From [Leptolyngbya] sp. PCC 7376 (lineage in GTDB: Bacteria; Cyanobacteriota; Cyanobacteriia; Cyanobacteriales; MRBY01), in contig NC_019683.1 of assembly GCF_000316605.1 (NCBI RefSeq), forward strand, positions 2,464,036 to 2,528,035: a stretch of DNA of 64,000 nt. Reading direction: 5' to 3'. Shown one piece after another: positions 49,453 to 64,000 of this stretch (within the stretch, counting starts at the first letter, position 1; every line of letters starts with the position of its first letter). A program made the position numbers and the translations under genes. The notes under the pieces are model-generated. The model saw only the letters and a list, made by a program, of their open reading frames with translations. It did no database searches and had not been told where the DNA came from.

Positions 49453-52158
49453 ATGAAAATCCTTAAAACCCTAACCCTTCGAGGTCCGAATTATTGGAGC
49501 ATTCGACGCCAGAAATTAATTGTGATGCGGCTCGATCTTGAAGAAATTGCGGAAACCCCATCCAATGAGATCGATGGTTTTTATGAAGCGCTGAGTGAAA
49601 CCCTACCCAGCCTAGTCGAACATTACTGCTCCCCTGGTTGCCGAGGTGGCTTTTTCAGTCGCGTTCGTGAAGGCACATTCATGGGTCATATCGTCGAGCA
49701 TGTTGCCCTAGAACTTCAAGAATTAGCAGGAATGCCCGTTGGCTTCGGTCGCACTCGCATGACTGGTGATGATGGTGTCTACAGCGTTGTTTTTGAATAT
49801 ATTTACGAGCAAGCCGGTCGTTACGCCGGTCGTGCTGCCGTTCGCCTCTGCCAATCCATTGTTGAGACAGGCCGCTACCCTCAAGAAGAATTAGAGCAAG
49901 ATCTCGCAGACCTCCGAGATCTAAAAGCCAGTTCGGCCCTCGGCCCCAGCACAGAAACCATTGTTAAAGAAGCAGAAGCACGGGGAATTCCCTGGTCAAT
50001 GCTTAGTGCAAGAGCAATGATCCAGTTAGGCTATGGCATTTATCAAAAGCGAATCCAAGCTACTCTCAGCAACAACTCTGGCATCCTTGCAGTTGAACTT
50101 GCCTGCGATAAAGAAGGGACAAAAAACATCTTGGCAGATGCTGGCGTCCCCGTGCCTCGCGGTGTTGTGATCCGTTACCTCGATGATCTCGAAGATGCTA
50201 TTGAAGATGTTGGCAGTTACCCAGTGGTCGTTAAACCATTAGATGGCAACCATGGTCGCGGTATCACCATCAATGTCAAAACTTGGAAAGATGCCGAAGT
50301 TGCCTACGATCTAGCGAGTGAAGCCTCGAAAACTCACTCTGTTATTATTGAACGCTACTACCAAGGCAGTGATCACCGTGTCCTTGTCATTAATGGCAAA
50401 TTAACAGCGGTCTCCCAAAGAATTCCAGCCCATGTTGTTGGTGATGGTCGGCGGACAGTCGAAGAATTAATTGAAGAAACAAACCGCGATCCCAACCGTG
50501 GTGATGGCCATGATAATGTTTTAACCCGAATTGTCGTTGATCAAACAGCACTCAAAGTCCTTGAAAGCCAAGATATTTCTCTGGATACAGTGTTGCGTGA
50601 TCGCGAAGTCGCCTACCTTCGAGCTACAGCAAACCTCAGTACAGGCGGGATTGCCATTGATCGCACTGATGATATTCATCCTTACAATGTTTGGCTGTTT
50701 GAACGTGCAGCGAAAATTATTGGTCTGGATATTGCAGGAATCGATGTTGTCACTGAAGACATCACAAAACCACTACCAGAAACAGATGGTGTCATTGTTG
50801 AAGTTAATGCAGCGCCTGGCTTCCGGATGCATGTTGCCCCTAGTCGTGGCCTTCCCCGTAACGTAGCAGCGCCTGTGATTGACATGCTCTACCCAGATGG
50901 TGCACCTAGCCGTATACCCATCATTGCGTTGACAGGGACGAATGGTAAAACCACCACAACTCGTTTAACGGCACATATTTATCGGCAAACCGGGAAAGTT
51001 GTCGGCTATACCAGCACTGATGGCGTTTATATCGGTGATTATCTCGCACAGGGTGGTGATAATACTGGGCCTCAGAGTGCGGCAATGATTTTGCAAGATC
51101 CAACGGTAGAAGTAGCTGTCCTCGAATCTGCGCGAGGTGGCATGCTCAGAGCGGGTTTGGCATTTGATAATTGTGATATTGGTGTTGTCCTCAACGTAGC
51201 CGCCGATCACCTCGGCCTTGGCGATATCAATACGATTGAGCAAATGGCTCAGGTTAAGGGAGTTGTAGCGGAAACGGTCAGCCCTGAGGGTTATGCTGTC
51301 TTAAATGCGGATGATCCGCTTGTCGCAGCAATGGCAGAAAAGGTACGAGGGAAAGTCACTTACTTTTCGATGCAAACGGATAATCCACTAGTCCTCGAAC
51401 ATGTACGTCGTGGTGGTTTAGCGGCCATTTATGAAAATGGGTTTATCACTATCTGTGAAGGGGAATGGAAACTCCGGGTCGAGTCAGTAAAAAATGCTCC
51501 TGTCACAATGGGTGGTATGGCACCATTTATGATCGCAAATGCATTAGCGGCTTGTTTAGCGGCATTTGCTCAGGGGGTTGATATTGAACATATTCGCCAA
51601 GGATTACGCACCTTTAAGCCTTCTGCAGCACAAACTCCAGGTCGGATGAATCTTTTTAATCTTGGTGAATATCATGCGCTGGTGGATTATGCTCATAATC
51701 CGGCTGGTTATGAAGCTGTAGGTGCTTTCGTCAAAAATTGGGAAGGTCAACGCATTGGTGTGGTGGGTGGACCTGGCGATCGCCGCGATGAAGATTTAAT
51801 CTTGCTTGGTAAGATTGCTGCTGATGTTTTCGACAAAATTATCGTTAAAGAAGACGATGATAAGCGAGGACGGAAAAGTGGTGAAGTTGCCGATTTAATT
51901 ATTGAAGGCATTCGTCAACACAATCCAGACTGTCACCATGAAATAATCCTCGACGAAAGGCAGGCGCTCAATGGAGCTCTCGATAATGCACCAAAGGATT
52001 CCCTTGTCGTGATTTTCCCTGAAACTGTTAATCGGACGATCGCCATGATTCAAGAACGAAACCCGAAAGAAGACGATGCCATTGCCACCGAAACGAATGG
52101 TCATCACTCAAATAGTGAGGTTGCAGAAATCGTTAGCTCCACGCCAATACTCAACTAG
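49453..52158 (+). CDS. cphA: Cyanophycin synthetase
   Basis: The protein has 901 residues, the usual length for CphA1. The N-terminal domain (about 1-160) begins MKILKTLTLRGPNYWSIRRQ. The ATP-grasp domain (about 220-480) includes VVKPLDGNHGRGITINVKTW and VEVNAAPGFRMHVAPSRG. The Mur-ligase-like domain has the P-loop ALTGTNGKTTTTRLTAHIY (about 492-510) and YAHNPAGYEAVG. It adds Asp to the backbone and Arg to side chains to build the nitrogen-storage polymer. With cphB it forms the classic synthesis and degradation pair. Confidence 0.97.
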   Translation: MKILKTLTLRGPNYWSIRRQKLIVMRLDLEEIAETPSNEIDGFYEALSETLPSLVEHYCSPGCRGGFFSRVREGTFMGHIVEHVALELQELAGMPVGFGRTRMTGDDGVYSVVFEYIYEQAGRYAGRAAVRLCQSIVETGRYPQEELEQDLADLRDLKASSALGPSTETIVKEAEARGIPWSMLSARAMIQLGYGIYQKRIQATLSNNSGILAVELACDKEGTKNILADAGVPVPRGVVIRYLDDLEDAIEDVGSYPVVVKPLDGNHGRGITINVKTWKDAEVAYDLASEASKTHSVIIERYYQGSDHRVLVINGKLTAVSQRIPAHVVGDGRRTVEELIEETNRDPNRGDGHDNVLTRIVVDQTALKVLESQDISLDTVLRDREVAYLRATANLSTGGIAIDRTDDIHPYNVWLFERAAKIIGLDIAGIDVVTEDITKPLPETDGVIVEVNAAPGFRMHVAPSRGLPRNVAAPVIDMLYPDGAPSRIPIIALTGTNGKTTTTRLTAHIYRQTGKVVGYTSTDGVYIGDYLAQGGDNTGPQSAAMILQDPTVEVAVLESARGGMLRAGLAFDNCDIGVVLNVAADHLGLGDINTIEQMAQVKGVVAETVSPEGYAVLNADDPLVAAMAEKVRGKVTYFSMQTDNPLVLEHVRRGGLAAIYENGFITICEGEWKLRVESVKNAPVTMGGMAPFMIANALAACLAAFAQGVDIEHIRQGLRTFKPSAAQTPGRMNLFNLGEYHALVDYAHNPAGYEAVGAFVKNWEGQRIGVVGGPGDRRDEDLILLGKIAADVFDKIIVKEDDDKRGRKSGEVADLIIEGIRQHNPDCHHEIILDERQALNGALDNAPKDSLVVIFPETVNRTIAMIQERNPKEDDAIATETNGHHSNSEVAEIVSSTPILN

Positions 52159-52189
52159 ATAAGAATCAGTGCGGTGCTTTTAAAACGTC

Positions 52190-52831
52190 CTAGCATTCGT
52201 CACATGGGGCAACTTTTACTCCTGGGTCACTGAGATGGGTTTGATCATTTGCAAGGGTACAGTCCCAATGCTTGCCCGTCTGAGTGAATTCTGAAATGGC
52301 ACAGACATCAAAACTAAACTCGGGTTCTTTTCCTAATAGGGCGATCGCACAACCAATTAACGGCTCTTTGTGACCAACAACCAACAGATTGCCTGCATAG
52401 TTTGTCAATAAAAATTGCATGGTTTTGGCTGATCGCTGCAACATTGGCGATCGCCTCTCTGGATATTGCGGCACAACAAAACTTTTATAATTTCGCTCAA
52501 TTAACTCATCTGCATATTGCAACGGCTCAGACGTTAATTTCGGTTTTCCCGGCATCCAATCTTGATTCAGCCATTCCCCTAAACCAGTTTCAACTTTTAA
52601 GGATAATTGATAGGCGATCGCCACAGCCATAGCCGTCTCCAACGTCCGACGATAGGGTGACACAAAAATATGCCCAACAACCTCACTCTTTAACCGCTGC
52701 GCTAACTCCCGAGCCTGTAATGTCCCAGCAGGACATAACGGTGAATCATAGGGAAATTGAGCAGAAACAAACCATTTCGGTTGAATAAAATCTAGACGAT
52801 TACCATGCCGCACCAACCAAACCTTGCGCAC
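52190..52831 (-). CDS. Histidine phosphatase superfamily protein
   Basis: The protein has 213 residues. VWLVRHGNRLDF carries the RHG catalytic motif. The YDSPLCPAGTLQARELAQRL, VSPYRRTLETAMAVA and LLVVGHKEPLIG blocks supply the remaining Arg, Glu and His. No transit or signal peptide is seen. The substrate is unknown; the family covers sugar phosphatases and phosphoglycerate mutase-like enzymes. It follows the HepT-like gene by 33 bases. Confidence 0.85.
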   Translation of the reverse strand: MRKVWLVRHGNRLDFIQPKWFVSAQFPYDSPLCPAGTLQARELAQRLKSEVVGHIFVSPYRRTLETAMAVAIAYQLSLKVETGLGEWLNQDWMPGKPKLTSEPLQYADELIERNYKSFVVPQYPERRSPMLQRSAKTMQFLLTNYAGNLLVVGHKEPLIGCAIALLGKEPEFSFDVCAISEFTQTGKHWDCTLANDQTHLSDPGVKVAPCDEC

Positions 52832-52864
52832 AATCGCTCACCAATCCCACAAAAACCAAGCATC

Positions 52865-53233
52865 TTAATTAACTTCAAGCTTTGTCGTTGCAAACCCTTT
52901 ATCAGGCAAAATCACTTCTAAAGTACGAGACCAACGAGGCAAATCATTGTGAACCAGATCCCAAACAAATGCGATATTCACCACCGCATATTCCTCACTC
53001 ATCGTCCGTGCAATCTGCTCTAACTCGTACCAAGGTAACTGGGGGATTTCTTCCTGGAGCTCACGGGGGACATTCCGCGACGCAATACCCATAATTTCCA
53101 AACGTCGAATCACTGCATCCTGCACAATAATATTTCCGAGGAAATCGCTCCAAGACATCTCTGAAATATAATTAATTGCCAATCGTGCCGAAATCAAAAT
53201 ATCAAGCAAAGTTAGAGTATGCCGATCCGCCAT
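52865..53233 (-). CDS. HepT/DUF86-like HEPN protein lacking the toxin motif
   Basis: The protein has 122 residues, with GAGG upstream of the ATG at 53233. SARLAINYIS, NIIVQDAVIRRLEIMGIASR and FVWDLVHNDLPRWSRTLEVI match the helices of HepT (DUF86) proteins. The R-x4-6-H-x-Y RNase motif expected after IART is absent: residues 74-84 read IARTMSEEYAV, with no His and an apparent short deletion. No MntA-type nucleotidyltransferase antitoxin is adjacent. It may be an inactive former toxin or a repurposed binding protein. Confidence 0.7.
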   Translation of the reverse strand: MADRHTLTLLDILISARLAINYISEMSWSDFLGNIIVQDAVIRRLEIMGIASRNVPRELQEEIPQLPWYELEQIARTMSEEYAVVNIAFVWDLVHNDLPRWSRTLEVILPDKGFATTKLEVN

Positions 53234-53358
53234 GAAAAACCTCGAAAGAACCTCCGTTGAGGAATCTAAATCGCTATATTGAGTACAGTGATCATTTAGA
53301 AATTTACTAGAGTTTGCAGAGGCTTTAGAGCCATTATTCCTTAAAATTTTAAGTCCTA

Positions 53359-53922
53359 ATGAAACGTAAACCCCGCTCTCGCTACGATCGCCCGAATTAT
53401 GACCGACGGCAACAATATCCGGAGCAGAACTCAGTAAAAAAGCCGCTATTCAACTTTAATTATGCAACCCTTGCCCTATTTGGGGGAATTTTTGTCTTAG
53501 GGGTTACAACAGGCATTGGCTTCAGTTCCAGTACCAATTCTAACCCGGCACGTATTGATTCCCGCCTCGAGATTGATCGCCAAGCTCCTGACGCTGAATT
53601 GTGTCAGCAATTTGGTGCTAGTGCGATTGTGACAAATATGCAGGTGTATGTCACGCTCAATCCCTTTAATGTTTTCGTAACGCAGCCCCAGATGCAGCCC
53701 GGCTGTGTGATCCGACAAAATAATTGGGCCATCCTTGAAAAACAAAACCTCATCACATCGGAACAGGTTAATGATTGTAAGCGTCGGATGAATACGTTTG
53801 GTTATACAGGCAGTTTACAAGGTTCTCCGAAAATTAACTGTATTTATCAGAATGATGCGGCTGGTAATCTTTTCCTCAACCAATCGGGTAACGGTATTGT
53901 GCCGGAATCAGATAGTTTTTAA
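53359..53922 (+). CDS. DUF3172 family protein, membrane anchored
   Basis: The protein has 187 residues. A basic, Arg/Tyr-rich N-terminus (KRKPRSRYDRPNYDRR) precedes one membrane helix (about 34-55), then a soluble domain with four Cys residues (CQQF, PGCVI, NDCKRR, NCIY). VYVTLNPFNVFVTQPQMQPG and CVIRQNNWAILEK are the family's core. The basic head should stay in the cytosol and the Cys domain in the lumen or periplasm. The function is unknown. Confidence 0.85.
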   Translation: MKRKPRSRYDRPNYDRRQQYPEQNSVKKPLFNFNYATLALFGGIFVLGVTTGIGFSSSTNSNPARIDSRLEIDRQAPDAELCQQFGASAIVTNMQVYVTLNPFNVFVTQPQMQPGCVIRQNNWAILEKQNLITSEQVNDCKRRMNTFGYTGSLQGSPKINCIYQNDAAGNLFLNQSGNGIVPESDSF

Positions 53923-54001
53923 GTTTTGGATGAACGGAAGCCTTGGGAAAGGATACTAGGATAGGTTTAGTCATTTTTTGTGTGTTGAGAGGAGTATCAC
54001 G

Positions 54002-55876
54002 ATGTGTGGCATCGTCGGCTATTTAGGAACGCAAGCGGCAACGGATATTCTAGTCGGTGGACTAGAGCGTCTGGAGTATCGCGGTTATGATTCGGCAGGG
54101 ATCGCCACAATTTGGGATGATCAAGTTCATTCGGTACGGGCAAAAGGCAAGCTTTATCATCTACGGGAACAGTTAGAAAACCAACAAACGCCATCGCAGA
54201 TTGGTATTGGGCACACGCGCTGGGCAACCCATGGAAAGCCTGAAGTACACAATGCCCACCCTCATTTGGACATGTCGCAACGAGTCGCGGTTGTTCAAAA
54301 CGGCATCGTCGAGAATTATCGAGAATTACGACTGGAATTGCAGGAAAAAGGGTATAACTTCCTATCGGAGACAGATACAGAGGTTATTCCTCACCTTATT
54401 TCTGATTTATTGAAAGAGACAGTTGGTAGTGATGAGCCATTTTTGGACGCGGTACAGAAGGCGATCGCCCGTTTAGAGGGAGCCTTTGCCATTGGTGTTA
54501 TCTGCGCAGACTATCCAGATGAGTTGATTGTGGCACGGCAGCAGGCTCCTTTAACTCTAGGGTTTGGACAAGGTGAATTTTTCTGTGCATCGGATATTAC
54601 AGCTCTGATTCCACACACAAGCGCAATCTTGACCCTCGAAAATGGCGAGATGGCACGGATGACGCCCCTCGGAATGGAGATTTATAGCTTTGCGGGCGAG
54701 CGTCTTAAGAAAACGCCTCGCACCCTCGACTGGAATCCTGTTGCAGTTGAAAAGCAGGGTTTTCGGCACTATATGCTCAAGGAAATTTATGAGCAGCCTG
54801 CCGTTGTCCGTACCAATATTGAGGCCTATCTCAATCTAGACGCAGAACATCCGATCAATCTCTCGATTAACCCACCAGAATTTCTCGATAATATTGACCA
54901 TATCCAAATCGTATCCTGTGGAACCAGTTGGCATGCCAGCCTCGTTGGGAAATATCTTTTAGAGCAATTGGCGGGTATTCCCACGTTTGTGTACTATGCA
55001 TCAGAATTTCGCTATTCTCCCTCACCAATAATGCCCAACACTCTCACCATCGGAGTGACCCAATCTGGTGAAACAGCAGATACGATCGCTGCCCTCGAAA
55101 TGGAGAAAGAACGGAGATCGCATCGAACCGATGCAAAATTCAAACCACGCTTACTCGGCATCACCAATCGTTCCGAAAGTACGATTACCCAGATCGTTGA
55201 TCAGGTGATGTTCACCCATGCAGGAATTGAAATTGGGGTTGCGGCAACGAAAACTTTCGAAGCGCAGTTAATGAGTTTCTATTTTCTGGCGATGGAACTG
55301 GCGGCCAGACGAAAAGCCCTTTCCTCCGTCGAAATTAGCGCTCTCATTGATGAATTAAAACAAGTGCCAGCACAGATTGAATCCATCATTGAGGAGCAAG
55401 AAAAAGATATTGAAGAGCTGGCTCATGCCTTTGTCGATACTAATGATTTTATTTTCATCGGGCGAGGTATAAATTTTCCTATTGCTCTTGAGGGTGCACT
55501 GAAATTAAAGGAAATTAGTTATATCCACGCCGAGGGTTATCCTGCAGGTGAGATGAAACATGGCCCCATCGCATTGCTGGATACAAAAGTACCTGTGGTG
55601 GCGATCGCCATGCCGGGAGAGATCTATGAAAAAGTGATTTCCAACGCCCAGGAAGCAAAAGCCCGTGATGCCCTATTAATCGGTGTAACAGCGAGTAATG
55701 ATCAAGAGGCAGGACACACCTTTGATAAAGTATTGCCTGTTGCACCAGTTAAGGAAATACTATCGCCGTTGTTAGCGGTGATTCCCCTCCAGTTGCTGTC
55801 GTATCACATTGCAGCCCATCGTGGCCTAGATGTGGATCAACCTCGTAATTTGGCAAAGTCTGTCACGGTAGAGTAA
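54002..55876 (+). CDS. glmS: Glutamine-fructose-6-phosphate aminotransferase
   Basis: The protein has 624 residues from ATG 54002, after GAGAGGAG; an in-frame start at 53978 would block the required N-terminal Cys. MCGIVGYLG begins the Ntn glutaminase domain (Cys nucleophile after Met removal), with HTRWATHGKP and RLEGAFAIGVI. Two SIS domains follow (about 300-605), with SCGTSWHASLVGKYLLEQ, TQSGETADTIAAL and the C-terminal DQPRNLAKSVTVE. It makes glucosamine-6-phosphate for cell wall precursors. No glmS ribozyme is seen upstream. Confidence 0.97.
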   Translation: MCGIVGYLGTQAATDILVGGLERLEYRGYDSAGIATIWDDQVHSVRAKGKLYHLREQLENQQTPSQIGIGHTRWATHGKPEVHNAHPHLDMSQRVAVVQNGIVENYRELRLELQEKGYNFLSETDTEVIPHLISDLLKETVGSDEPFLDAVQKAIARLEGAFAIGVICADYPDELIVARQQAPLTLGFGQGEFFCASDITALIPHTSAILTLENGEMARMTPLGMEIYSFAGERLKKTPRTLDWNPVAVEKQGFRHYMLKEIYEQPAVVRTNIEAYLNLDAEHPINLSINPPEFLDNIDHIQIVSCGTSWHASLVGKYLLEQLAGIPTFVYYASEFRYSPSPIMPNTLTIGVTQSGETADTIAALEMEKERRSHRTDAKFKPRLLGITNRSESTITQIVDQVMFTHAGIEIGVAATKTFEAQLMSFYFLAMELAARRKALSSVEISALIDELKQVPAQIESIIEEQEKDIEELAHAFVDTNDFIFIGRGINFPIALEGALKLKEISYIHAEGYPAGEMKHGPIALLDTKVPVVAIAMPGEIYEKVISNAQEAKARDALLIGVTASNDQEAGHTFDKVLPVAPVKEILSPLLAVIPLQLLSYHIAAHRGLDVDQPRNLAKSVTVE

Positions 55877-55934
55877 TTCAGGCTTGTGGCGATCGTCCCT
55901 CTGAAGTCGAGTGTGTATAACACAAGCTTGAGGG

Positions 55935-55950
55935 AGTAGTATATACTGCT
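55935..55950. promoter_or_regulatory. 16-base near-perfect palindrome, candidate operator
   Basis: AGTAGTATATACTGCT pairs with itself at seven of eight positions. It lies between glmS and the lipid cluster and about 190 bases before the latter's first start codon. Such length and symmetry suit a dimeric HTH regulator, but none is identified. Confidence 0.35.
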
Positions 55951-55972
55951 TGCAAAAACTTTATAAAAAATA

Positions 55973-56032
55973 GGGGTGGGCTTAGAATAACTGGACAACT
56001 GGTCAAACAAACAATTTCCTAAGCTCACATCC
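55973..56032 (+). ncRNA. Long hairpin in the leader of the lipid cluster
   Basis: GGGGTGGGCTTAG (55973-55985) pairs with CTAAGCTCACATCC (56019-56032): 13 pairs including two G-U and one bulged A, around a 33-base loop that contains ACTGG twice. There is no T run after it. It sits about 105 bases before the start codon of the FAAL-ACP-oxoamine synthase gene and may be a regulatory leader; I cannot match it to a known riboswitch class. Confidence 0.35.
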
Positions 56033-56136
56033 TTATATGAAAACGCCCAAAAACTAAGTTATCTCTACTGCCGATAGTCTGAGGAAATTTAGTATGAATC
56101 ACTTCCAGTAACCGACACCCTTAAATTGATTGCTTT

Positions 56137-59100
56137 ATGGTAACCCTGCCAAATCCCCCCCGAATCCATGCATCCCTTTTAGAAATTCTGGGTCATCGAG
56201 CGCAAAATCAGCCCGATCAGCAGGCCTATATTTTTCTGCAAGATGGGGAAACGGAGTCGGACAGTCTGACTTACAGTGAGCTAGACCAGCAAGCACGGGC
56301 GATCGCCGCCCACCTCAAACCTTGGCAGGGGGAACAAGCATTACTTCTTTATTCTTCTGGATTGGATTTTATTAAAGCCTTTTTCGGTTGTCTCTATGCA
56401 AAAGTTGTCGCGGTTCCGGTTTATCGACCCAGACGCAATCAGAAATTATCAAGACTACTGGCGATCGCCAACAACTCCCAGGCAAAGATCGCTCTAACCA
56501 CCACCACAATTCTGACCGAGATCGAACAACGTTGGGAAGAAAACACTGAGCTTTCCCAATTGCAGATCATTGCCACAAATACGATCGACGATAATCCAGA
56601 CAACTTTGCCCCCATACCGATTGAGTCCGAAGACTTAGCATTTCTGCAATATACATCCGGCTCTACAGGGACACCAAAAGGGGTAATGGTGACCCATGGC
56701 AATATCATTCATAACCAACGGTTAATCCACCAAGCCTTTGGCCATAGCGAAAATAGCGTTGGTGTTGGTTGGTTACCCCTCTTCCATGACATGGGATTAA
56801 TCGGTCATGTTCTGCAACCACTTTATGTCGGCTTCCCCAGTGTATTGATGCCTCCCCTTGCCTTTTTGGCAAACCCTTTACGTTGGTTAAAGGCGATCTC
56901 CAAATACAAAGCAACAACCAGCGGTGGCCCAAACTTTGCCTATGATCTGTGTATTAACCGTATTTCTGATGAACAGCTTGCAAGCTTAGATCTATCCAGT
57001 TGGGATTTAGCCTATAGTGGCGCAGAACCAGTACGGGCGGAAACCCTAGAGAAATTTAGCCAGAAGTTCAGTGCTAGCAAGTTTAACCACAGCTCGTTTT
57101 ATCCCTGCTATGGCATGGCAGAAACTACACTATTTGTCACTGGTGGCAAAAAACACCAAAGCCCTATTGTCAAAACAGTACAGCCAGAAAATCTTGTACT
57201 AAATGAATCGGCTCAAACAGCATCCCTTGCCCCATCCGAAAATATTTTTGTCGGTTGTGGTCGTCCTTATATGGATACGACAGTGGCGATCGTTGACCCG
57301 AATACCTTTACCTGTTGTCTAGATGGACAGGTCGGTGAAATTTGGGTAAGTGGTGGCAGCATTGCAGCAGGCTATTGGAACGCCCCATCAGCCACAGAAG
57401 AAACGTTCCAGGCGACTCTCGAAGAAAAAGATCATGCTTCATTTCTACGAACGGGCGATCTTGGTTTCTTTAGTCGAGGCGAGTTGTTTGTCACCGGACG
57501 TCTAAAGGATTTAATTATTATCCGCGGCAAAAATCATTATCCCCATGACATCGAATTAACAGTTCAAAAATCTCACCTGGCTTTGCGGGAAAACTGTGGC
57601 GCCGCGTTTTCCATTGACCAGAATGGGCAAGAAAGGTTGGTGATCGTACAGGAGGTTAAACGAACCTATCTGCGGGATCTGGATGTTAATGAAGTGGTGG
57701 GTGTTATCCGTAAAGCTGTTTCAGAAAGCCATGAACTGCAAGCTTATGGGGTGATTTTAATTAAAACAGGTAGTATTGCAAAAACCTCTAGTGGCAAAAT
57801 CCAGCGCCATGCCTGTCGTGAGGCATTTTTAAATAATGAATTAATTGTTGTGGGGCAAAACATTTTGGGAGAAACTGGTCTCGGTGCAACAGATCCAGCA
57901 ACATCAAAAGCTGCGGAAATTTCAACATTATTGACAAAGCTCTGTGAACAAATTTCGCAGGAGTTAGGGTTAGCTGCTAATACGATTCGCCCAGATCAGC
58001 AGATTGGAAGCCTCGGTTTGGACTCAATCCAAGTGATCGCCATTAAAGGTTATGTCGAAGATAATTTTGATTTAACTGTGCCAATGGAGCAATTTTTTGA
58101 AGATATTACGGTGGCGCAGTTGGCCGAAAATATTGTCGCGGAGGCGAATAAGGCCACGGATGCATGGTCCTATGAATTAGTGTCTGGTGAAAGTGCAGAG
58201 CACACTTCAGAGAATGGCAAGGTAGCATCGAATAATGGCACGGGTGACATTGATTTAGATTCTCGTCTCAGACTGGCCTTCCAAAAGGATAATGACGTTC
58301 TGCAAAAAGCACGGGACTTCGCATTACCGGATCAGCTACGAGCTCAGGGTTTATTGCCTTATTTCCGTGAGCTAGAACGAAATGAAGGTGCCACTTGTAT
58401 TTTTGACGGGCGATCGCTAGTCATGTTGGGGTCAAATAATTATCTTGGCCTCACAGCAGATATGCGAGTGCGGGGTGCAGCGGCAAAAGCGGCTCTTGTT
58501 GATGGGCCAAGCTTAACGGGTTCACGCTTATTAAATGGTTCTACTAGCCAACACCGCGAATTAGAGAAAAAACTCGCCAAATTTGTCGGTCATGAAGATG
58601 CATTAGTCTTTACGACAGGTTATCAAGCAAACCTCGGGTTTATCTCAGCATTGATGAATGAAAATACGACGATCATTCTCGATAGCGAAGCCCATGCATG
58701 TATTTACGACGGTGCATTTATGAGTCGCTGTAAGGTAATGACCTATCAGCATAATGATTTGGCAGATCTCGAAAAGAAATTACAGCAGGTTGCTGGCAAG
58801 TCTGCAACGATGGTGACGGTTGATGGTGTGTATTCGATGACTGGTGATATTGCACCGCTACCTGAATTGCGTGCATTGTGTGATCGTTATGGTGCAACGC
58901 TGGCGGTAGATGATGCCCATTCCCTCGGTGTCCTGGGTAAAACAGGTCGAGGTACAGAAGAGTATTTCGACATGATCGGCAGTAGTGACATTCTCTGCGG
59001 TACATTCTCGAAAAGTTTGGCATCAATTGGTGGCTGGGTTGCAGCTGAGGCCAAAGTAATTGATTGGATTCGCTTTAACGGTCGTTCAATGTTGTTCTCG

Positions 59101-59475
59101 GCATCTATTCCACCAACTTCTCTAGCTGCGGCTTCTACTTCCCTCGATATTTTGATTGAAGAGCCTTGGCGTGTCGAAACTCTCCATAAGAATGCAAAGT
59201 ATTGGAAAGATAGTCTGGAAAAGCTTGGGTTCACGGTTGGTGAATCTCAAACGCCTGTGATTAAGGTGCTTGTAGGTGATGACCTGAAATGTATGGTCTT
59301 CTGTAAGGAATTGTTGGAGGCTGGAGTTTATGTGAACTCGGCGGTTTATCCTGCGGTTCCCCGAAATCAGGCTTCTCTGCGGACTAGTGTTATGGCAACT
59401 CACACGAAGGAGCATCTTGATAAGGCATTGACGATCATTGCTGAGGTTGGTCGCAAGTTAGAGATTATTTCCTAG
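56137..59475 (+). CDS. Tri-domain fatty acyl-AMP ligase / acyl carrier / alpha-oxoamine synthase
   Basis: This single 1112-residue chain has three domains. (1) FAAL, about 10-580: YTSGSTGTPKGVMVTHGN, LFHDMGLIGHVLQPLY, YPCYGMAETTLFVTGG and SSGKIQRHACRE. (2) Acyl carrier, about 600-680: SLGLDSIQVIA with the phosphopantetheine Ser630. (3) PLP-dependent alpha-oxoamine synthase, about 715-1112: GSNNYLGLTADMRVR, SLTGSRLLNGSTSQHRELE, DSEAHACIYDG, VDDAHSLGVLG and GTFSKSLASIGG with the PLP Lys959. The inferred reaction activates a fatty acid as acyl-AMP, loads it on the fused carrier and condenses it with an amino acid to a 3-keto amine, as serine palmitoyltransferase does. The amino acid (serine, glycine, alanine or cysteate) cannot be read. 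Confidence 0.9.
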   Translation: MVTLPNPPRIHASLLEILGHRAQNQPDQQAYIFLQDGETESDSLTYSELDQQARAIAAHLKPWQGEQALLLYSSGLDFIKAFFGCLYAKVVAVPVYRPRRNQKLSRLLAIANNSQAKIALTTTTILTEIEQRWEENTELSQLQIIATNTIDDNPDNFAPIPIESEDLAFLQYTSGSTGTPKGVMVTHGNIIHNQRLIHQAFGHSENSVGVGWLPLFHDMGLIGHVLQPLYVGFPSVLMPPLAFLANPLRWLKAISKYKATTSGGPNFAYDLCINRISDEQLASLDLSSWDLAYSGAEPVRAETLEKFSQKFSASKFNHSSFYPCYGMAETTLFVTGGKKHQSPIVKTVQPENLVLNESAQTASLAPSENIFVGCGRPYMDTTVAIVDPNTFTCCLDGQVGEIWVSGGSIAAGYWNAPSATEETFQATLEEKDHASFLRTGDLGFFSRGELFVTGRLKDLIIIRGKNHYPHDIELTVQKSHLALRENCGAAFSIDQNGQERLVIVQEVKRTYLRDLDVNEVVGVIRKAVSESHELQAYGVILIKTGSIAKTSSGKIQRHACREAFLNNELIVVGQNILGETGLGATDPATSKAAEISTLLTKLCEQISQELGLAANTIRPDQQIGSLGLDSIQVIAIKGYVEDNFDLTVPMEQFFEDITVAQLAENIVAEANKATDAWSYELVSGESAEHTSENGKVASNNGTGDIDLDSRLRLAFQKDNDVLQKARDFALPDQLRAQGLLPYFRELERNEGATCIFDGRSLVMLGSNNYLGLTADMRVRGAAAKAALVDGPSLTGSRLLNGSTSQHRELEKKLAKFVGHEDALVFTTGYQANLGFISALMNENTTIILDSEAHACIYDGAFMSRCKVMTYQHNDLADLEKKLQQVAGKSATMVTVDGVYSMTGDIAPLPELRALCDRYGATLAVDDAHSLGVLGKTGRGTEEYFDMIGSSDILCGTFSKSLASIGGWVAAEAKVIDWIRFNGRSMLFSASIPPTSLAAASTSLDILIEEPWRVETLHKNAKYWKDSLEKLGFTVGESQTPVIKVLVGDDLKCMVFCKELLEAGVYVNSAVYPAVPRNQASLRTSVMATHTKEHLDKALTIIAEVGRKLEIIS

Positions 59476-59495
59476 CCGAAAGTTTTGATCCCTCC

Positions 59496-59522
59496 GGCTT
59501 CGCCACCTCCCTTTGAAAGGGA
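59496..59522. repeat. Tandem small palindromes between lipid genes
   Basis: GGC-TTC-GCC (59496-59504) and TCCCTTT-G-AAAGGGA (59508-59522) lie in the 101-base gap before the reductase gene. The block looks like the short palindromic dispersed elements seen between cyanobacterial genes. It could also be a weak processing or attenuation site, since only AAATAAAT follows and not a T run. Confidence 0.5.
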
Positions 59523-59576
59523 AATAAATGGGGGCATAGAGCCACATTATTTTTTGTCAGTGAGAATTTTGTATAT

Positions 59577-60380
59577 ATGCAGCACGCCATTATTACGGGT
59601 GGGTCGAGTGGGATTGGTAAGGCGATCGCCACTCTCCTGCTCCAACAGGGGTATAGTTTGTCGCTGATTGCCCGCCGCCCAGAACTTTTAGAGGGTGCAA
59701 AAATTGATTTAGAGAAAGAGTGTATTAACTCTGAGCAAAAGATTCTTTGTTTTCCAGCAGACGTTTCTGAGAAGACACAAATTACATCGGTAGTGGAAGA
59801 GGCGATCGCCAAGCTTGGTGTGCCTGATTTATTGATTACTTCAGCAGGAGTGGCGCAGCCTGGTTATTTTGAGGAAATGCCCTTAGAGATTTTTGAGCAG
59901 GCCATTAACGTGAATTATTTGGGGACGTTGTATGCGATTAAAGCGGCAATTCCCGCCATGAAACAACGGCAGAAAGGTCGCATTGTGATTATTTCGTCTG
60001 GGGCAGCTTTGATTGGTTTATATGGTTATACCGCCTATGGCCCCTCCAAATTCGCGTTGCGAGGTTTGGCGGAATCACTGCGGGGAGAATTGAAATGTTT
60101 TGGGATTGGGGTTTCTATTGTCTATCCACCCGACACCGATACGCCTCAACTTGCCGCTGAAAATGAGACGAAGCCCGAGGAAACCAAACAAATTACGGGG
60201 ACGGCTGAAATGTGGCAGCCGGATAAGCTTGCCGCTGTTATTTTGCAAGGCGTTGAAAAGCAACAATTTACGATCGCACCGGGTTTAGAACTGACGCTAC
60301 TCAATCGCCTCCATAGTTTGCTCGCGCCTGTGCTGAACTGGTATTTTGACGGTATTGTCCGTAAGGTTCGGGGCAATTAA
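59577..60380 (+). CDS. SDR reductase, 3-ketodihydrosphingosine reductase-like
   Basis: The protein has 267 residues. The NADPH fold starts ITGGSSGIGKAIA. The catalytic Ser lies in VIISSGAALIG and the Y-x-x-x-K in YTAYGPSKFALRGLAESL. After the core it carries YPPDTDTPQLAAENETKPEE, which closely follows the conserved PPDTDTPxxxxEN-x-TKPEET block of eukaryotic KDSR/TSC10. The C-terminal 25 residues are hydrophobic (LLNRLHSLLAPVLNWYF), suggesting membrane contact. The likely role is reduction of the 3-keto product of the preceding oxoamine synthase to an amino alcohol. It is 101 bases after that gene. Confidence 0.85.
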   Translation: MQHAIITGGSSGIGKAIATLLLQQGYSLSLIARRPELLEGAKIDLEKECINSEQKILCFPADVSEKTQITSVVEEAIAKLGVPDLLITSAGVAQPGYFEEMPLEIFEQAINVNYLGTLYAIKAAIPAMKQRQKGRIVIISSGAALIGLYGYTAYGPSKFALRGLAESLRGELKCFGIGVSIVYPPDTDTPQLAAENETKPEETKQITGTAEMWQPDKLAAVILQGVEKQQFTIAPGLELTLLNRLHSLLAPVLNWYFDGIVRKVRGN

Positions 60381-60442
60381 GTTTGTAACTATTCTGGCGA
60401 TCGCCGCCCAAATTATTCTTCGTTTCTAGTTGTAATTAACCG

Positions 60443-62227
60443 ATGAAAACCTATTCCACCATTGTTGATGTTCTCCGCGATCGCGCTGCTACTACTCCAG
60501 ATCGGTTAGCTTATTCTTTCGTTTCTGAGACGCCGACCAATGTCACCAGCCTCACCTACCAACAACTAGAAACCAAAGTTAAGGCGATCGCCGCCCATCT
60601 CCAAACAAAAATTCAGAAGGGCGATCGGATTTTATTGCTCTTTCCCTACAGTGATGGCTTGGAATTCGTAGCGAGTTTTTATGCCTGTTCCTATGCGGGT
60701 GCGGTAGCCGTCACAATCAATCCTAGTAAGAACGCCGATGCTCTCGATAAGTTATTAGAGAGGATCGAAGATTCCCAGGCGAAGGCAGTTGTCACAACTT
60801 CGGAAGTCATTAATTATTTCAAGGGTAAACTTGCCAAGAATCCTTTGAAAAGTGTGGGCGTTGCGACTAAATTCAGCCATCTTGAGTTGGTGGAAATGGA
60901 TAAGATTCCCCTTGATGAAGCCACCAATTGGCAGGATCCTGAAGTGACAGCTGATGACCTCGCCTTTTTCCAGTACACCTCGGGTTCAACGGGTAAGCCT
61001 AAGGGTGTCATGATCACTCAGGGTAATCTCCTCAATAATTCTGAAACCATCCGTAATGCCTTTGAGTACAACACCGAAAGCATTATGGGCACTTGGTTGC
61101 CGGTGTTCCATGATATGGGTTTAATTGGTGGAATTATTCAGCCGTTGTACACGGGTTTTCCGTCGATCATGATGTCGCCAGTAGAGTTAATTCAGCGGCC
61201 TCGTTTATGGCTAGAAACTATTTCCCATTACAAAATCACCACCAGTGGCGCTCCGAATTTTGCCTATGATCTGGTGGCGCGACAGGTTGATCCGACCCAA
61301 CTCGAAAATTTAGATCTGAGTTCTTGGCGATTGGCATTTTCTGGTGCAGAGACAGTGCGAGCTGCAACCCTTAAAAAATTCACCGAGGTATTTGCTCCCT
61401 TTGGATTTAAGCCAGAATATTTCTATCCTTGTTATGGCATGGCTGAGGCGACGTTATTTATCACAGGTGGCCAGGCGACAAAAGTGCCCAACATTCAATA
61501 TCTTGACCCAGAGGCCTTACAAGAAAATCGGGCTGTTCCTAGCGCCGAAAGTGAGTTAGGCATCGTGAGTTGTGGTCAACCTTGGCTAGATGATCAGGTG
61601 GCGATCGTCAATCCTGAAACCAAAACAGAGCTAGAAGATGGCAAGGTTGGCGAAATTTGGGCTTGTGGCGGCGGCATTGGTCAGGGTTATTGGCGAAGAC
61701 CCGAAGAAACAGCAGAAACCTTTAAGCAATATTTGGGCGATCGCGGGCCATTTTTGCGAACAGGGGATTTAGGCTTTGTGAAAGATGGCGAGGTATACAT
61801 CACGGGTCGCATGAAGGAAGTCATGATCCTATGGGGCCGTTATCGTTATCCCCAAAACATTGAAGCCACCGTCGAAAAATGTCACCCAGCATTGCGACCA
61901 TCTTTGGGGGCGGCGTTTTCCATTGAGGCCGAAAATGATGAACGTTTAGTTGTGGTTCATGAAGTTGAGCGGAGCCATATCCGTAAACTCAATGTGGAAG
62001 AAGTTGTCAGCGCGATTCGTAAGGCAATTTATGAAGAACATTCCGTCGAAGTTTATGGCATCGTTCTTATTAGAACCGCCACGATTCCGAAGACCAGTAG
62101 CGGTAAAATTCAGCGTCGCAAATGTCGTCAACTTTATCTCGATGGTGAAGGTCTAAATGTTGTGGGTGAATGGAAATTAGAGGTTTCTGAAAGCAAAGGT
62201 ATTACCGAATTAGCTGGTAGTCTCTAG
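60443..62227 (+). CDS. Stand-alone fatty acyl-AMP ligase
   Basis: The protein has 594 residues. It has the adenylation motifs FFQYTSGSTGKPKGVMITQG, PVFHDMGLIGGIIQPLY, YPCYGMAEATLFITGG, LRTGDLGFVKDGEVYITGR and the C-terminal catalytic Lys in TSSGKIQRRKCR. The FHDMGLI and GAPNFAYDL blocks are those of FAAL rather than acyl-CoA ligases. No carrier domain is attached, so it must donate its acyl group to the fused carrier, a free ACP, or another acceptor. It resembles the FAAL half of the upstream fusion and may activate a second acyl chain. It starts 62 bases after the reductase. Confidence 0.9.
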   Translation: MKTYSTIVDVLRDRAATTPDRLAYSFVSETPTNVTSLTYQQLETKVKAIAAHLQTKIQKGDRILLLFPYSDGLEFVASFYACSYAGAVAVTINPSKNADALDKLLERIEDSQAKAVVTTSEVINYFKGKLAKNPLKSVGVATKFSHLELVEMDKIPLDEATNWQDPEVTADDLAFFQYTSGSTGKPKGVMITQGNLLNNSETIRNAFEYNTESIMGTWLPVFHDMGLIGGIIQPLYTGFPSIMMSPVELIQRPRLWLETISHYKITTSGAPNFAYDLVARQVDPTQLENLDLSSWRLAFSGAETVRAATLKKFTEVFAPFGFKPEYFYPCYGMAEATLFITGGQATKVPNIQYLDPEALQENRAVPSAESELGIVSCGQPWLDDQVAIVNPETKTELEDGKVGEIWACGGGIGQGYWRRPEETAETFKQYLGDRGPFLRTGDLGFVKDGEVYITGRMKEVMILWGRYRYPQNIEATVEKCHPALRPSLGAAFSIEAENDERLVVVHEVERSHIRKLNVEEVVSAIRKAIYEEHSVEVYGIVLIRTATIPKTSSGKIQRRKCRQLYLDGEGLNVVGEWKLEVSESKGITELAGSL

Positions 62228-62297
62228 GTTTTGCAATGTGTGTGAGGGTGGTTCGCGAACAACCTCTACCAGTTTTAATACCCTGACGAAAGACAAA

Positions 62298-63521
62298 ATG
62301 AAAGTTGTTATTATTTCGGCCACGTTTTTGCCGTCCCATGATGGGGTTAGCATTACGCTTTACGAACGAATTAAGCAGTTATCGGTTGCGGGTCATGAAG
62401 CACTTTGTTTTGTGTCTAGCTATCAAGAAATAGCGTCAATTTATCCCAAGTGGTCAGATTATATTGGTGATCTTTTTCCCAATATCAAAATTATTTCTTT
62501 AGCGAGTGAGGAATGGATGGATGTGCCCCAAGAACGTAATCCTAAGCGCTCTACGCTGAAGATGATGGAGGAGGCGATCGCCCAATTCAAACCAGACGTA
62601 ATCGAAATTGAAGAGCCAGAACGGTTATGGACAACGCTCTTTAGTTTACCGGGACTAAAATATGCGCAACAAAATAATATTCCCTATATCGGTTGCTATC
62701 GAACGAATTTTATTGATTACATCCCCGATTATGTACCGGGATTTTTGGTTGGAATTGCCAAGACAGCGGCTTTGTTTTTGACGAAATGGCTCTATAACCA
62801 ATGTTCCATAACCCTTGTAGGTAGCCGTTTTATTGAACAAAAATTACAGGCTTGGGGCATTAATAATGTTGACTATGCCAAGGTCATTGGGCCACCAGTC
62901 ATTAAAAATCCAGAGCTATTAAAACAAGCAGATTTTTTTGCCCAAAACTACAATCTTCCTGATGTTGATCAAAATATCAAAATCTTATTTTTAGGCCGCC
63001 TTTCTCCCGATAAGAATTGGGATTTTACGCTGCAACATCTGGCTAAGCTAAAACAACAAAATATAACTCAGAAATTCACGATTTTAGTTGCGGGTCGTGG
63101 GGAACTCGATGAGGCGATCGCCACCCATCCTTTCATGAAAGAACTCCCAACCAAAATTTTAGGAGAAGTTGCCCATGACCAAGTACCCAATTTGCTAGCC
63201 AATGTGGATTTCCATGTGACTGCATCTCTTAAGGAAACCTTTGGTCGGACAGTGCAAGAGTCCCTTTATGTAGGAACCCCAATTCTGGCACCGGATTGCG
63301 ATTGGACTAGAAATCTCATCGAGCCTAACCAAAATGGGATTTTGTTTGATCCGAATAGTGGTGAGGACTTTATTCAGAAATTAGCCAGTTTGATTGAGAA
63401 TGAGGGCGATCGCCAACAATTACGCAAAAACATCTTGGCAAATCATTCCGAGAAAAATGACCCTAGTTATATTTGGATTGAATATTTACAGCGGCAGATT
63501 GACCAAGCCCAAACCCAGTAA
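62298..63521 (+). CDS. GT4-type glycosyltransferase (SqdX-like)
   Basis: The start MKVVIISATFLPSHDGVSIT at 62298 gives about 407 residues; an in-frame start at 62238 adds 20 unrelated residues. An N-terminal lobe is followed by a C-terminal GT4 lobe with ILFLGRLSPDKNWDFTLQHL and VDFHVTASLKETFGRTVQES, including the E-x7-E-like nucleotide-sugar site, and APDCDWTRN. The general plan resembles sulfoquinovosyl and mannosyl transferases that glycosylate lipids at the membrane. As the fourth gene of the cluster it may glycosylate the amino-alcohol lipid; donor unknown. Confidence 0.82.
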   Translation: MKVVIISATFLPSHDGVSITLYERIKQLSVAGHEALCFVSSYQEIASIYPKWSDYIGDLFPNIKIISLASEEWMDVPQERNPKRSTLKMMEEAIAQFKPDVIEIEEPERLWTTLFSLPGLKYAQQNNIPYIGCYRTNFIDYIPDYVPGFLVGIAKTAALFLTKWLYNQCSITLVGSRFIEQKLQAWGINNVDYAKVIGPPVIKNPELLKQADFFAQNYNLPDVDQNIKILFLGRLSPDKNWDFTLQHLAKLKQQNITQKFTILVAGRGELDEAIATHPFMKELPTKILGEVAHDQVPNLLANVDFHVTASLKETFGRTVQESLYVGTPILAPDCDWTRNLIEPNQNGILFDPNSGEDFIQKLASLIENEGDRQQLRKNILANHSEKNDPSYIWIEYLQRQIDQAQTQ

Positions 63522-63557
63522 AATCGCTACACTGTCTCAAGTTGCTTGAGCTCTACC

Positions 63558-64000
63558 ATGGGTTTTCCCGTCATTTATCACCCAAATTACGTTACGCCAA
63601 TCCCTGAAGAACATCGCTTTCCGATGCCGAAATTTAAGCGGCTGTATGAGATGCTGCTGCGGGATGACGTGATTCGATCAGAGCAAGTTTATGAGCCGGA
63701 ATTTCCTGAGATGGATTGGCTTGAGCTGGTTCACGACCGAAATTATATTGATGCCTATCGCAATGGGACCCTCGATAAAAAAGCCCAGCGACGCATCGGT
63801 TTGCCTTGGAGCAAAGGCGTTGTGACCCGAACGCTGACAGCAATTGGTGGTACCGTTACAACCGCAAAATTAGCCCTTGAACATGGGTTAGCTTGCAACA
63901 CTGCCGGGGGAACTCACCATGCTTTTCCCACCTATGGCTCTGGATTTTGCATTCTCAATGATTTGGCGATCGCCGCGAAAACAGTCCGACATTTAGGTCT
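63558..64000 (+). CDS. Histone deacetylase-fold amidohydrolase, 3' end cut by the window edge
   Basis: The frame is open from ATG 63558 to the end of the window (147 codons). PVIYHPNYVTPIPEEHRFPM, LELVHDRNYIDAYRNGTL and NTAGGTHHAFPTYGSGFCIL with NDLAIAA match class-I/II HDAC, AcuC and acetylpolyamine amidohydrolase proteins. The catalytic GGTHHA His pair is present; the Zn-binding Asp/His region lies at the right edge or beyond it. It starts 36 bases after the glycosyltransferase, so cotranscription is possible. Whether it deacylates the lipid or another amide is unknown. Confidence 0.85.
   Translation, partial: MGFPVIYHPNYVTPIPEEHRFPMPKFKRLYEMLLRDDVIRSEQVYEPEFPEMDWLELVHDRNYIDAYRNGTLDKKAQRRIGLPWSKGVVTRTLTAIGGTVTTAKLALEHGLACNTAGGTHHAFPTYGSGFCILNDLAIAAKTVRHLG

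Follow-up and report, generated by a model that had tools for sequence, protein, structure and literature searches.

A four-gene cluster for a predicted glycosylated sphingoid-type lipid in the cyanobacterium [Leptolyngbya] sp. PCC 7376

How cyanobacteria make sphingolipids, and whether they make them, is unsettled. The question is raised by four same-strand genes of [Leptolyngbya] sp. PCC 7376, whose genome is a single contig of 5.13 Mb (NC_019683.1); the genes lie in a 64,000-nt stretch of this contig, here called the window. The first gene (P0001) encodes a fusion of a fatty acyl-AMP ligase (FAAL), an acyl carrier domain (ACP) and an alpha-oxoamine synthase (AOS). It is followed by genes for a reductase resembling 3-ketodihydrosphingosine reductase (KDSR; P0002), a second FAAL (FAAL2; P0003) and a GT4 glycosyltransferase (P0004). 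Together they may constitute a self-contained pathway for a sphingoid-type lipid that carries a sugar, a reading to which we give a probability of roughly 0.7. An initial annotation of the stretch had proposed a cluster for a sphingoid-like lipid, and the sequence comparisons described below support that interpretation.

The AOS domain appears to be closest to serine palmitoyltransferase (SPT). In three trees it clusters with characterised SPTs, with support values of 83/94 (75 rows), 97/97 (56 rows) and 100/97 (53 rows). The relatives were drawn from genome contigs, the best 80 matches (79 loci) being used. The first tree leaves out two copies of the window sequence (L005, L088) and a partial one (L031); the second is the first minus 24 rows plus five added rows, including references linked to polyketide synthases (PKS); the third leaves out three long rows (E. 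coli BioF L132, L108 and L128). The sets contained no cysteate transferase, SgaB or RkpG sequence, and L102, a Sphingomonas-type SPT in cyanobacterial genome G296 (6% contamination) that is probably on a foreign contig, was kept in. In the 56-row tree the PKS-linked references form a clade separate from the window AOS; this second AOS clade is labelled PKS/capsule-linked from the gene context of L202-L206. Placement of the domain with BioF or with KBL was rejected by the approximately unbiased (AU) test (p 0.0008 and 0.0002, respectively).

Comparison with solved structures points in the same direction. In a PDB sequence search the Sphingobacterium multivorum SPT (SmSPT) scores 343 bits, followed by Sphingomonas SPT (263), KBL (253) and cysteate transferase (227). 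SmSPT residues N52, H138, D210, H213, K244 and R367 (numbered so that the chain begins as in 8guh) are identical in the window sequence and the four orthologues shown. The AlphaFold2 model of the domain (mean pLDDT 87) matches SmSPT with a Z score of 53.0 (root-mean-square deviation (rmsd) 2.0, 389 residues aligned), a modest lead over KBL (Z 51.0, rmsd 2.9, 391 aligned). By score and fold, Bacteroidota SPTs (S. multivorum 3a2b/8guh; Bacteroides L119) are thus the closest characterised AOS, but they are stand-alone proteins without the fused FAAL and ACP of the window gene.

The best solved relative of P0002 is TSC10 (8jat), a 3-ketodihydrosphingosine reductase, at 113 bits (the next scores 87), and the two proteins share an AEN-TKP--TK stretch. 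The catalytic residues of short-chain dehydrogenases/reductases (SDR), S141, Y154 and K158, are invariant in all 23 rows compared. A collection of 72,556 plasmid records contains seven with a P0002 relative at E<=1e-30, all from Rhizobiaceae (three genera), and each of these seven genes directly adjoins an AOS gene, as judged from coordinates and, for two records, from gene tables. In the reductase tree, window-type genes are interleaved with those of loci carrying the second AOS type (L011 with L135, 97/95). From the likeness to KDSR and the genomic coupling to AOS genes we infer that P0002 is a KDSR-like 3-keto-base reductase, in agreement with the initial annotation.

The domain identities given for the remaining parts are borne out by Pfam, all matches being above curated cut-offs: besides the domains in Table 1, P0001 carries Aminotran_1_2 (aa 761-1100), P0002 adh_short, P0003 AMP-binding and the DIP2-like domain with no carrier, and P0004 Glycos_transf_1. 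The top NCBIfam match, both for the P0001 ligase region and for P0003, is NF004282, a large model for nonribosomal peptide and polyketide synthases (NRPS/PKS). The next, NF004509 (fatty-acid--AMP ligase; 457 and 443 bits, respectively, below its cut-off of 775), scores better than the models for CoA ligases, and PDB matches of P0003 include the FAALs FadD32, FadD23 and FadD28. By sequence, both proteins are therefore closest to FAALs rather than to acyl-CoA ligases. P0004 had no PDB relative at E<=1e-12.

Catalytic motifs are present throughout the cluster. Each FAAL retains two intact FAAL motifs, those of P0001 being YTSGSTGTPKGV at aa 172 and SSGKIQR at aa 551. The phosphopantetheine serine of the carrier domain (aa 630, bases 58024-58026) is found in an intact GSLGLDS, and the lysine of the AOS that binds pyridoxal phosphate (PLP; aa 959, bases 59011-59013) in GTFSKSLAS. 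The four genes are separated by 101, 62 and 70 bases.

Table 1. Coordinates of the four genes and of the domains of the fusion protein within the window.
Feature	Coordinates	Strand	Evidence
P0001, FAAL-ACP-AOS fusion, 1112 aa	56137..59475	+	Open reading frame (ORF), Pfam, NCBIfam
P0001, FAAL part	56194..57846	+	Pfam AMP-binding aa 20-414, DIP2-like AMP domain aa 458-570; motifs
P0001, acyl carrier domain, aa 601-664	57937..58128	+	Pfam PP-binding; phosphopantetheine Ser motif
P0001, SPT-like AOS domain, aa 721-1110	58297..59466	+	NCBIfam, PDB, trees, residues, fold
P0002, KDSR-like short-chain reductase, 267 aa	59577..60380	+	Match to TSC10 8jat; co-occurrence
P0003, stand-alone second FAAL (FAAL2) without carrier domain, 594 aa	60443..62227	+	Pfam; PDB; co-occurrence
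P0004, GT4 glycosyltransferase, 407 aa from first ATG	62298..63521	+	Pfam; co-occurrence; possible GTG start at 62238

The cluster is a conserved feature of its genus. The fusion is present in all six genomes, with P0001 relatives 66-90% identical in L223, L224, L009, L133 and L134, and the intact plus-strand ORFs occur in the same order (fusion, reductase, FAAL, GT4) in the window and in these five relatives. The gene order claimed at the outset was thus confirmed. There are two variations: the GT4 of L133 is a diverged relative (38% identity), and L009 has one additional gene between FAAL and GT4. Comparison with their counterparts in L134 (Picosynechococcus PCC 7117) shows differences at 21-25% of first and second codon positions and at 56-61% of third positions, with no stop codons; synonymous divergence (dS) is saturated in three of the four genes. 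The four genes are under clear purifying selection, and chance ORFs are excluded.

The surroundings of the cluster are more variable. A glmS gene lies upstream in the window (named by its sequence), L009 and L223, and was not found within the fetched stretches of L133, L134 and L224; the four genes therefore appear to be a conserved unit in a changing setting. Outside the family, G003 carries the fusion, the reductase and a partial FAAL on a contig of 6.1 kb, with no GT4 at E<=1e-50.

Whether the genes belong together can also be judged from their distribution. Five queries were run over the same 388 cyanobacterial genomes, with cut-offs of E<=1e-55 for the reductase, E<=1e-110 for the second-type AOS (query L067), E<=1e-50 for GT4 and E<=1e-200 for close FAAL2. 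The reductase was found in 39 genomes (22 genera), the second-type AOS in 36, GT4 in 34 and close FAAL2 in 11. The window-type AOS occurs in four (G000, G164, G238, G003), which gave the sole matches above 70% identity, the next being at 40%. A long-chain AOS is present in 36 of the 39 reductase genomes, 32 of them with the second type and four with the window type, and no genome has both. The second-type AOS occurs without the reductase in four genomes (G022, G097, G202, G242), and the reductase without either AOS, at these cut-offs, in three: G220 (85% completeness), G319 and G240, the last of which has a broken second-type AOS beside the reductase. All 11 close-FAAL2 genomes have the reductase, as do 31 of the 34 GT4 genomes; two of the other three have an AOS, and G273 has neither. 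In the FAAL tree, too, the FAAL2 clade consists solely of rows from reductase-bearing genomes, but since most rows of that tree were picked from reductase loci, the whole-genome FAAL2 search is the better evidence. Of 35 additional reductase loci, a few of them truncated at contig ends, 15 have an AOS on the same fetched stretch; it is stand-alone, PKS-fused or FAAL-ACP-fused.

This distribution bears on the remark in the initial annotation that sphingoid bases are not a usual lipid of cyanobacteria. That remark seems to understate the case, since reductase orthologues occur in about a tenth of the genomes and ceramides are reported, in the relevant passages of PMC8895605, from Scytonema julianum and Moorea producens. 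According to the same passages, Nostoc punctiforme has only a BioF-like AOS, and common, unbranched sphingolipids were not detected in it.

The following pathway can be proposed from these observations. The FAAL of P0001, going by its family, would adenylate a free fatty acid and load the acyl group onto the adjoining ACP domain. The AOS would condense this acyl-ACP with an amino acid, for which L-serine is the likeliest candidate, and with loss of CO2 yield a 3-keto sphingoid base, a step suggested by its placement among SPTs and by its residues. P0002 would then reduce the ketone to a sphinganine-like base, P0003 might activate another fatty acid, N-acylation being its simplest use, and P0004 would add a sugar, as its co-occurrence with the other genes suggests. 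Because ligase, carrier and synthase are joined in a single chain, the acyl group could bypass the CoA and housekeeping ACP pools. Conceivably, a Wzx-like flippase may carry the glycolipid across the membrane. Such a gene follows GT4 in four of the six genus genomes (L009, L133, L134 and L224; PF01943 in L134, by BLAST in the others) and is also found within AOS loci L016/L190, L173 and L183; in the window genome a flippase homologue, 58% identical, is located away from the cluster.

Several observations weigh against this pathway. The AOS domain falls below the cut-offs of the NCBIfam SPT models, each of which is lineage-specific: NF047600 (Bacteroidota SPT, the best of them) gives 444 bits against a cut-off of 640, NF047599 389 against 500 and NF047603 311 against 670. 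Because it misses every curated SPT cut-off, the domain is best described, by sequence, as a new SPT-like subfamily and not as a member of a curated SPT family. The AU test did not reject the window AOS as a sister branch of the second AOS clade in its entirety (p 0.178). A firm grouping with BioF or with a polyketide-type family, which according to the initial annotation would have refuted its reading, is thus not observed, less clearly so for the polyketide type. SmSPT Met271 is replaced by Leu in the window AOS, and the choice of amino acid is not readable from the sequence. In fold comparisons of P0002 many SDRs tie, and TSC10 is not among the 50 matches listed. No N-acyltransferase was identified for the N-acylation step. 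In G319 the reductase is accompanied by neither type of AOS at these cut-offs. At cut-off, close FAAL2 is absent from 28 of the 39 reductase genomes and GT4 from eight (G003, G073, G216, G225, G227, G249, G283, G365), among which G073, G225 and G283 are the three genomes whose FAAL-ACP-AOS fusions contain the second-type AOS. Finally, the Fisher values for the associations (3e-12 to 1e-42; 1e-42 for reductase with AOS) ignore shared ancestry and, related genomes not being independent, are read as strong association and not as exact probabilities.

The fusions themselves seem to have had more than one origin. A single clade for all fused AOS domains was rejected (p 3e-55), and in a quick tree the FAAL parts of the fusions were likewise not grouped, suggesting that FAAL-ACP-AOS fusions arose more than once. 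In that tree the FAAL of P0001 (FAAL1) groups with L011, L014 and L023, apart from the FAALs of the cyanobacterial fusions L173, L182 and L183, which argues against a simple domain swap within one ancestral fusion; we therefore describe the history as separate fusions with AOS replacement. Given these separate origins of the fused AOS and FAAL parts, the reductase appears to have been kept, often with GT4 and the second FAAL, while the condensing enzyme and the supply of fatty acid differ. Tentatively, and at rather less than even odds for the claim as a whole, about one-tenth of cyanobacterial species might make a glycosphingolipid-like outer-leaflet glycolipid from free fatty acids by one modular pathway in which the condensing enzyme has been replaced outright. 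This pathway would comprise a long-chain AOS and a reductase of the KDSR type, in many cases also FAAL2 and GT4, and sometimes a Wzx-like flippase; the AOS would in most lineages be PKS/capsule-linked and fed by a PKS or a FAAL, and in the window genus SPT-type, with its FAAL and ACP in the same chain.

Other products could be drawn from the same genes. The sphingoid base might anchor or carry an exported polysaccharide as its lipid part instead of forming a free membrane glycolipid, as has been proposed for capsule systems of the rkp/wcb type. We regard this as unlikely, if the strongest of the alternatives. The nearest reductase and AOS pairs outside cyanobacteria adjoin PKS and capsule genes (L205, L206), and the flippase genes that follow GT4 or lie within AOS loci, as described above, would fit an export system; the flippase homologue of the window genome, however, is not only apart from the cluster but among genes that, by eye, look unrelated.

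One comparable system of this kind is L205, on pSymB of Sinorhizobium meliloti. As in the window, the gene directly after its AOS encodes a P0002-like reductase (42% identical), but a PKS-like gene of 7.5 kb takes the place of the FAAL, the AOS belongs to the second clade, and the context is that of capsule genes. We take the L205 genes to be rkpA-rkpG-rkpH. A role of rkpGHIJ in the capsule is indicated by the title of a reference listed in PMC3908369.

Somewhat less probable again is an AOS that takes glycine or alanine instead of serine, so that the product would be an amino alcohol of the 1-deoxy or desoxymethyl sphingoid kind, which might be secreted as a bioactive metabolite instead of becoming a membrane lipid. 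Cyanobacteria commonly make natural products that are fatty amines, the residues compared do not decide the choice of amino acid, and FAAL1 groups with FAALs of larger proteins (e.g., L014, 2681 aa; L023, 2695 aa). The clustering of the AOS with serine-using SPTs and the association with GT4, which suggests a glycolipid, argue instead for the serine-derived glycolipid proposed above.

It is very improbable that the AOS is a cysteate acyltransferase for capnine-type sulfonolipids. SulA likewise uses acyl-ACP and is structurally near SPT (PMC9304779, in part; fold match 7u7h), but cysteate transferases carry a lysine at SulA Lys281 that, according to passages of the same Alistipes study, is possibly diagnostic, and the window AOS has Ala at this site, equivalent to SmSPT Ala274. 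Both the sequence score (227 bits vs 343 for SPT) and the fold match (Z 45.3, rmsd 2.8, 379 aligned, vs 53.0) are also lower. A role of the fusion in biotin or threonine metabolism, as a homologue of BioF or KBL, can be all but dismissed: the superfamily is shared and the domain scores 362 bits with each NCBIfam model, but this is below the cut-offs (426 for BioF, 460 for KBL), the same genome has separate AOS genes that group in the tree with KBL (L003) and BioF (L004), and the AU tests reject both placements.

For the sphingoid-type glycolipid proposed above, several partly comparable systems exist. In Pseudomonas fluorescens MYb115, the SgaABC cluster includes an AOS with shown SPT activity and a KDSR homologue proposed as the reductase (PMC12134224, in the sections concerned); cyanobacteria are not mentioned in the main text of that paper. 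The two loci are alike in combining an AOS and a eukaryote-like KDSR in one cluster. They differ in chain supply: the SgaABC chain comes from an iterative PKS, that of the window would come from a free fatty acid via FAAL, and none of the four window genes is a PKS. The Pseudomonas PKS-AOS L202 falls, unlike the window AOS, in the second AOS clade; SgaB itself is outside the trees.

The supply of the chain is more similar in Caulobacter and E. coli B, in which a dedicated acyl-ACP synthetase and ACP (AasR-AcpR) feed SPT, acyl-AcpR being the preferred donor according to parts of PMC9386255. There the components are separate genes, and in the window they form one fused chain. On an E. coli plasmid (L130), genes for a FAAL, an epimerase-family protein, an ACP and an AOS lie side by side; this AOS belongs to the SPT set, like that of the window, to which it is 39% identical, but the epimerase-family gene stands in the position of the KDSR-like SDR. 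In L130-type loci this gene presumably acts as the reductase.

The statement in the initial annotation that ACP and synthetase are here fused to the synthase is correct by domains, but the fusion is not unique, since the other AOS type is fused in cyanobacteria and in Planctomycetes. The same FAAL-ACP-AOS order is found in cyanobacterial L173, L182, L183 and L013 and in at least 16 planctomycete loci (by BLAST coverage; the ACP of L173 by Pfam). L173, L182 and L183 have an adjoining KDSR, like the window, but an AOS of the second clade; the SDR of L013 clusters loosely with the reductases and is below the cut-off of E<=1e-25. The planctomycete fusions are from metagenome-assembled genomes (MAGs; L015, L019, L020, L022, L027, L029, L034, L035, L038, L042, L044, L048, L049, L050, L052, L066). 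The fetched stretches of these 16 loci, some of them short, gave no relative of P0002 at E<=1e-25, and the same product as for the window is therefore not claimed. Among the Planctomycetota MAGs of a Black Sea study, 138 are counted as encoding Spt-like proteins (PMC11334938). Searches of the CC-licensed literature in PMC, with subscription papers and preprints outside their scope, gave no description of the locus, of a FAAL-SPT link or of a Picosynechococcus sphingolipid.

Additional genes were observed at or near these loci. The gene inserted in L009 (16235-18262) has epimerase and FAD_binding_4 domains, is presumably DprE-like and might supply a sugar donor. A gene of the histone-deacetylase family (window 63546-63998) begins 24 bases past GT4 and also adjoins GT4 in L223; it was not found beside GT4 in L009, L133, L134 or L224. 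A His_Phos gene (window 52190-52831) resembles a gene between AOS and reductase in loci of genus g128, but at an identity of only 33-36%, and the likeness is thus treated as coincidence. Rfam at gathering scores gave nothing in window 50000-64000, and promoter and terminator predictions at the locus were no more frequent than in shuffled sequence.

Some loci elsewhere are of interest in their own right. In Anabaena catenula FACHB-362 (L011 9974-17214), one protein of 1,722 residues combines FAAL, acyl-CoA dehydrogenase domains, ACP and AOS, and its gene adjoins the reductase and a glycosyltransferase resembling monogalactosyldiacylglycerol (MGDG) synthase. Among 55 loci, a Polyketide_cyc/SRPBCC protein (e.g., L187 10224-10880) is found near the reductase or PKS-AOS in 16, and a protein of about 584 aa (e.g., L184 10094-11878) in 12. 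The L207 member of the latter family is annotated without function and others as GT39; the window genome has a relative that is 32% identical (G000:C1:4880109). One gene family lies between or beside the FAAL genes of g128 loci and L210 (L170 12909-19095, L178, L192, L196, L212-L214). By Pfam analysis of one member (L213 2893-3672) it is the PF05118 Asp/Asn hydroxylase family, which we take to be LpxO-like; its position might point to hydroxylation of the acyl chain, a feature of many sphingolipids. A search of the window genome for PF05118 gave no match, but neither did its control anywhere, and the result therefore carries no weight. On a plasmid of Priestia megaterium, an AOS of the SPT set that is 45% identical to the window AOS (L118 8998-10212) has a methyltransferase, an acyltransferase and an SMR transporter as neighbours, and is possibly a gene for a sphingoid-type lipid on a Gram-positive plasmid.

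The locus makes the question of cyanobacterial sphingolipids directly testable. The present analysis names candidate genes, predicts which genomes have such lipids and which do not, and points to Picosynechococcus PCC 7117. A single-chain FAAL-ACP-SPT could also serve as a tool for the conversion of free fatty acids to sphingoid bases. Lastly, a reductase that is kept while the condensing enzyme differs would amount to a natural replacement experiment.

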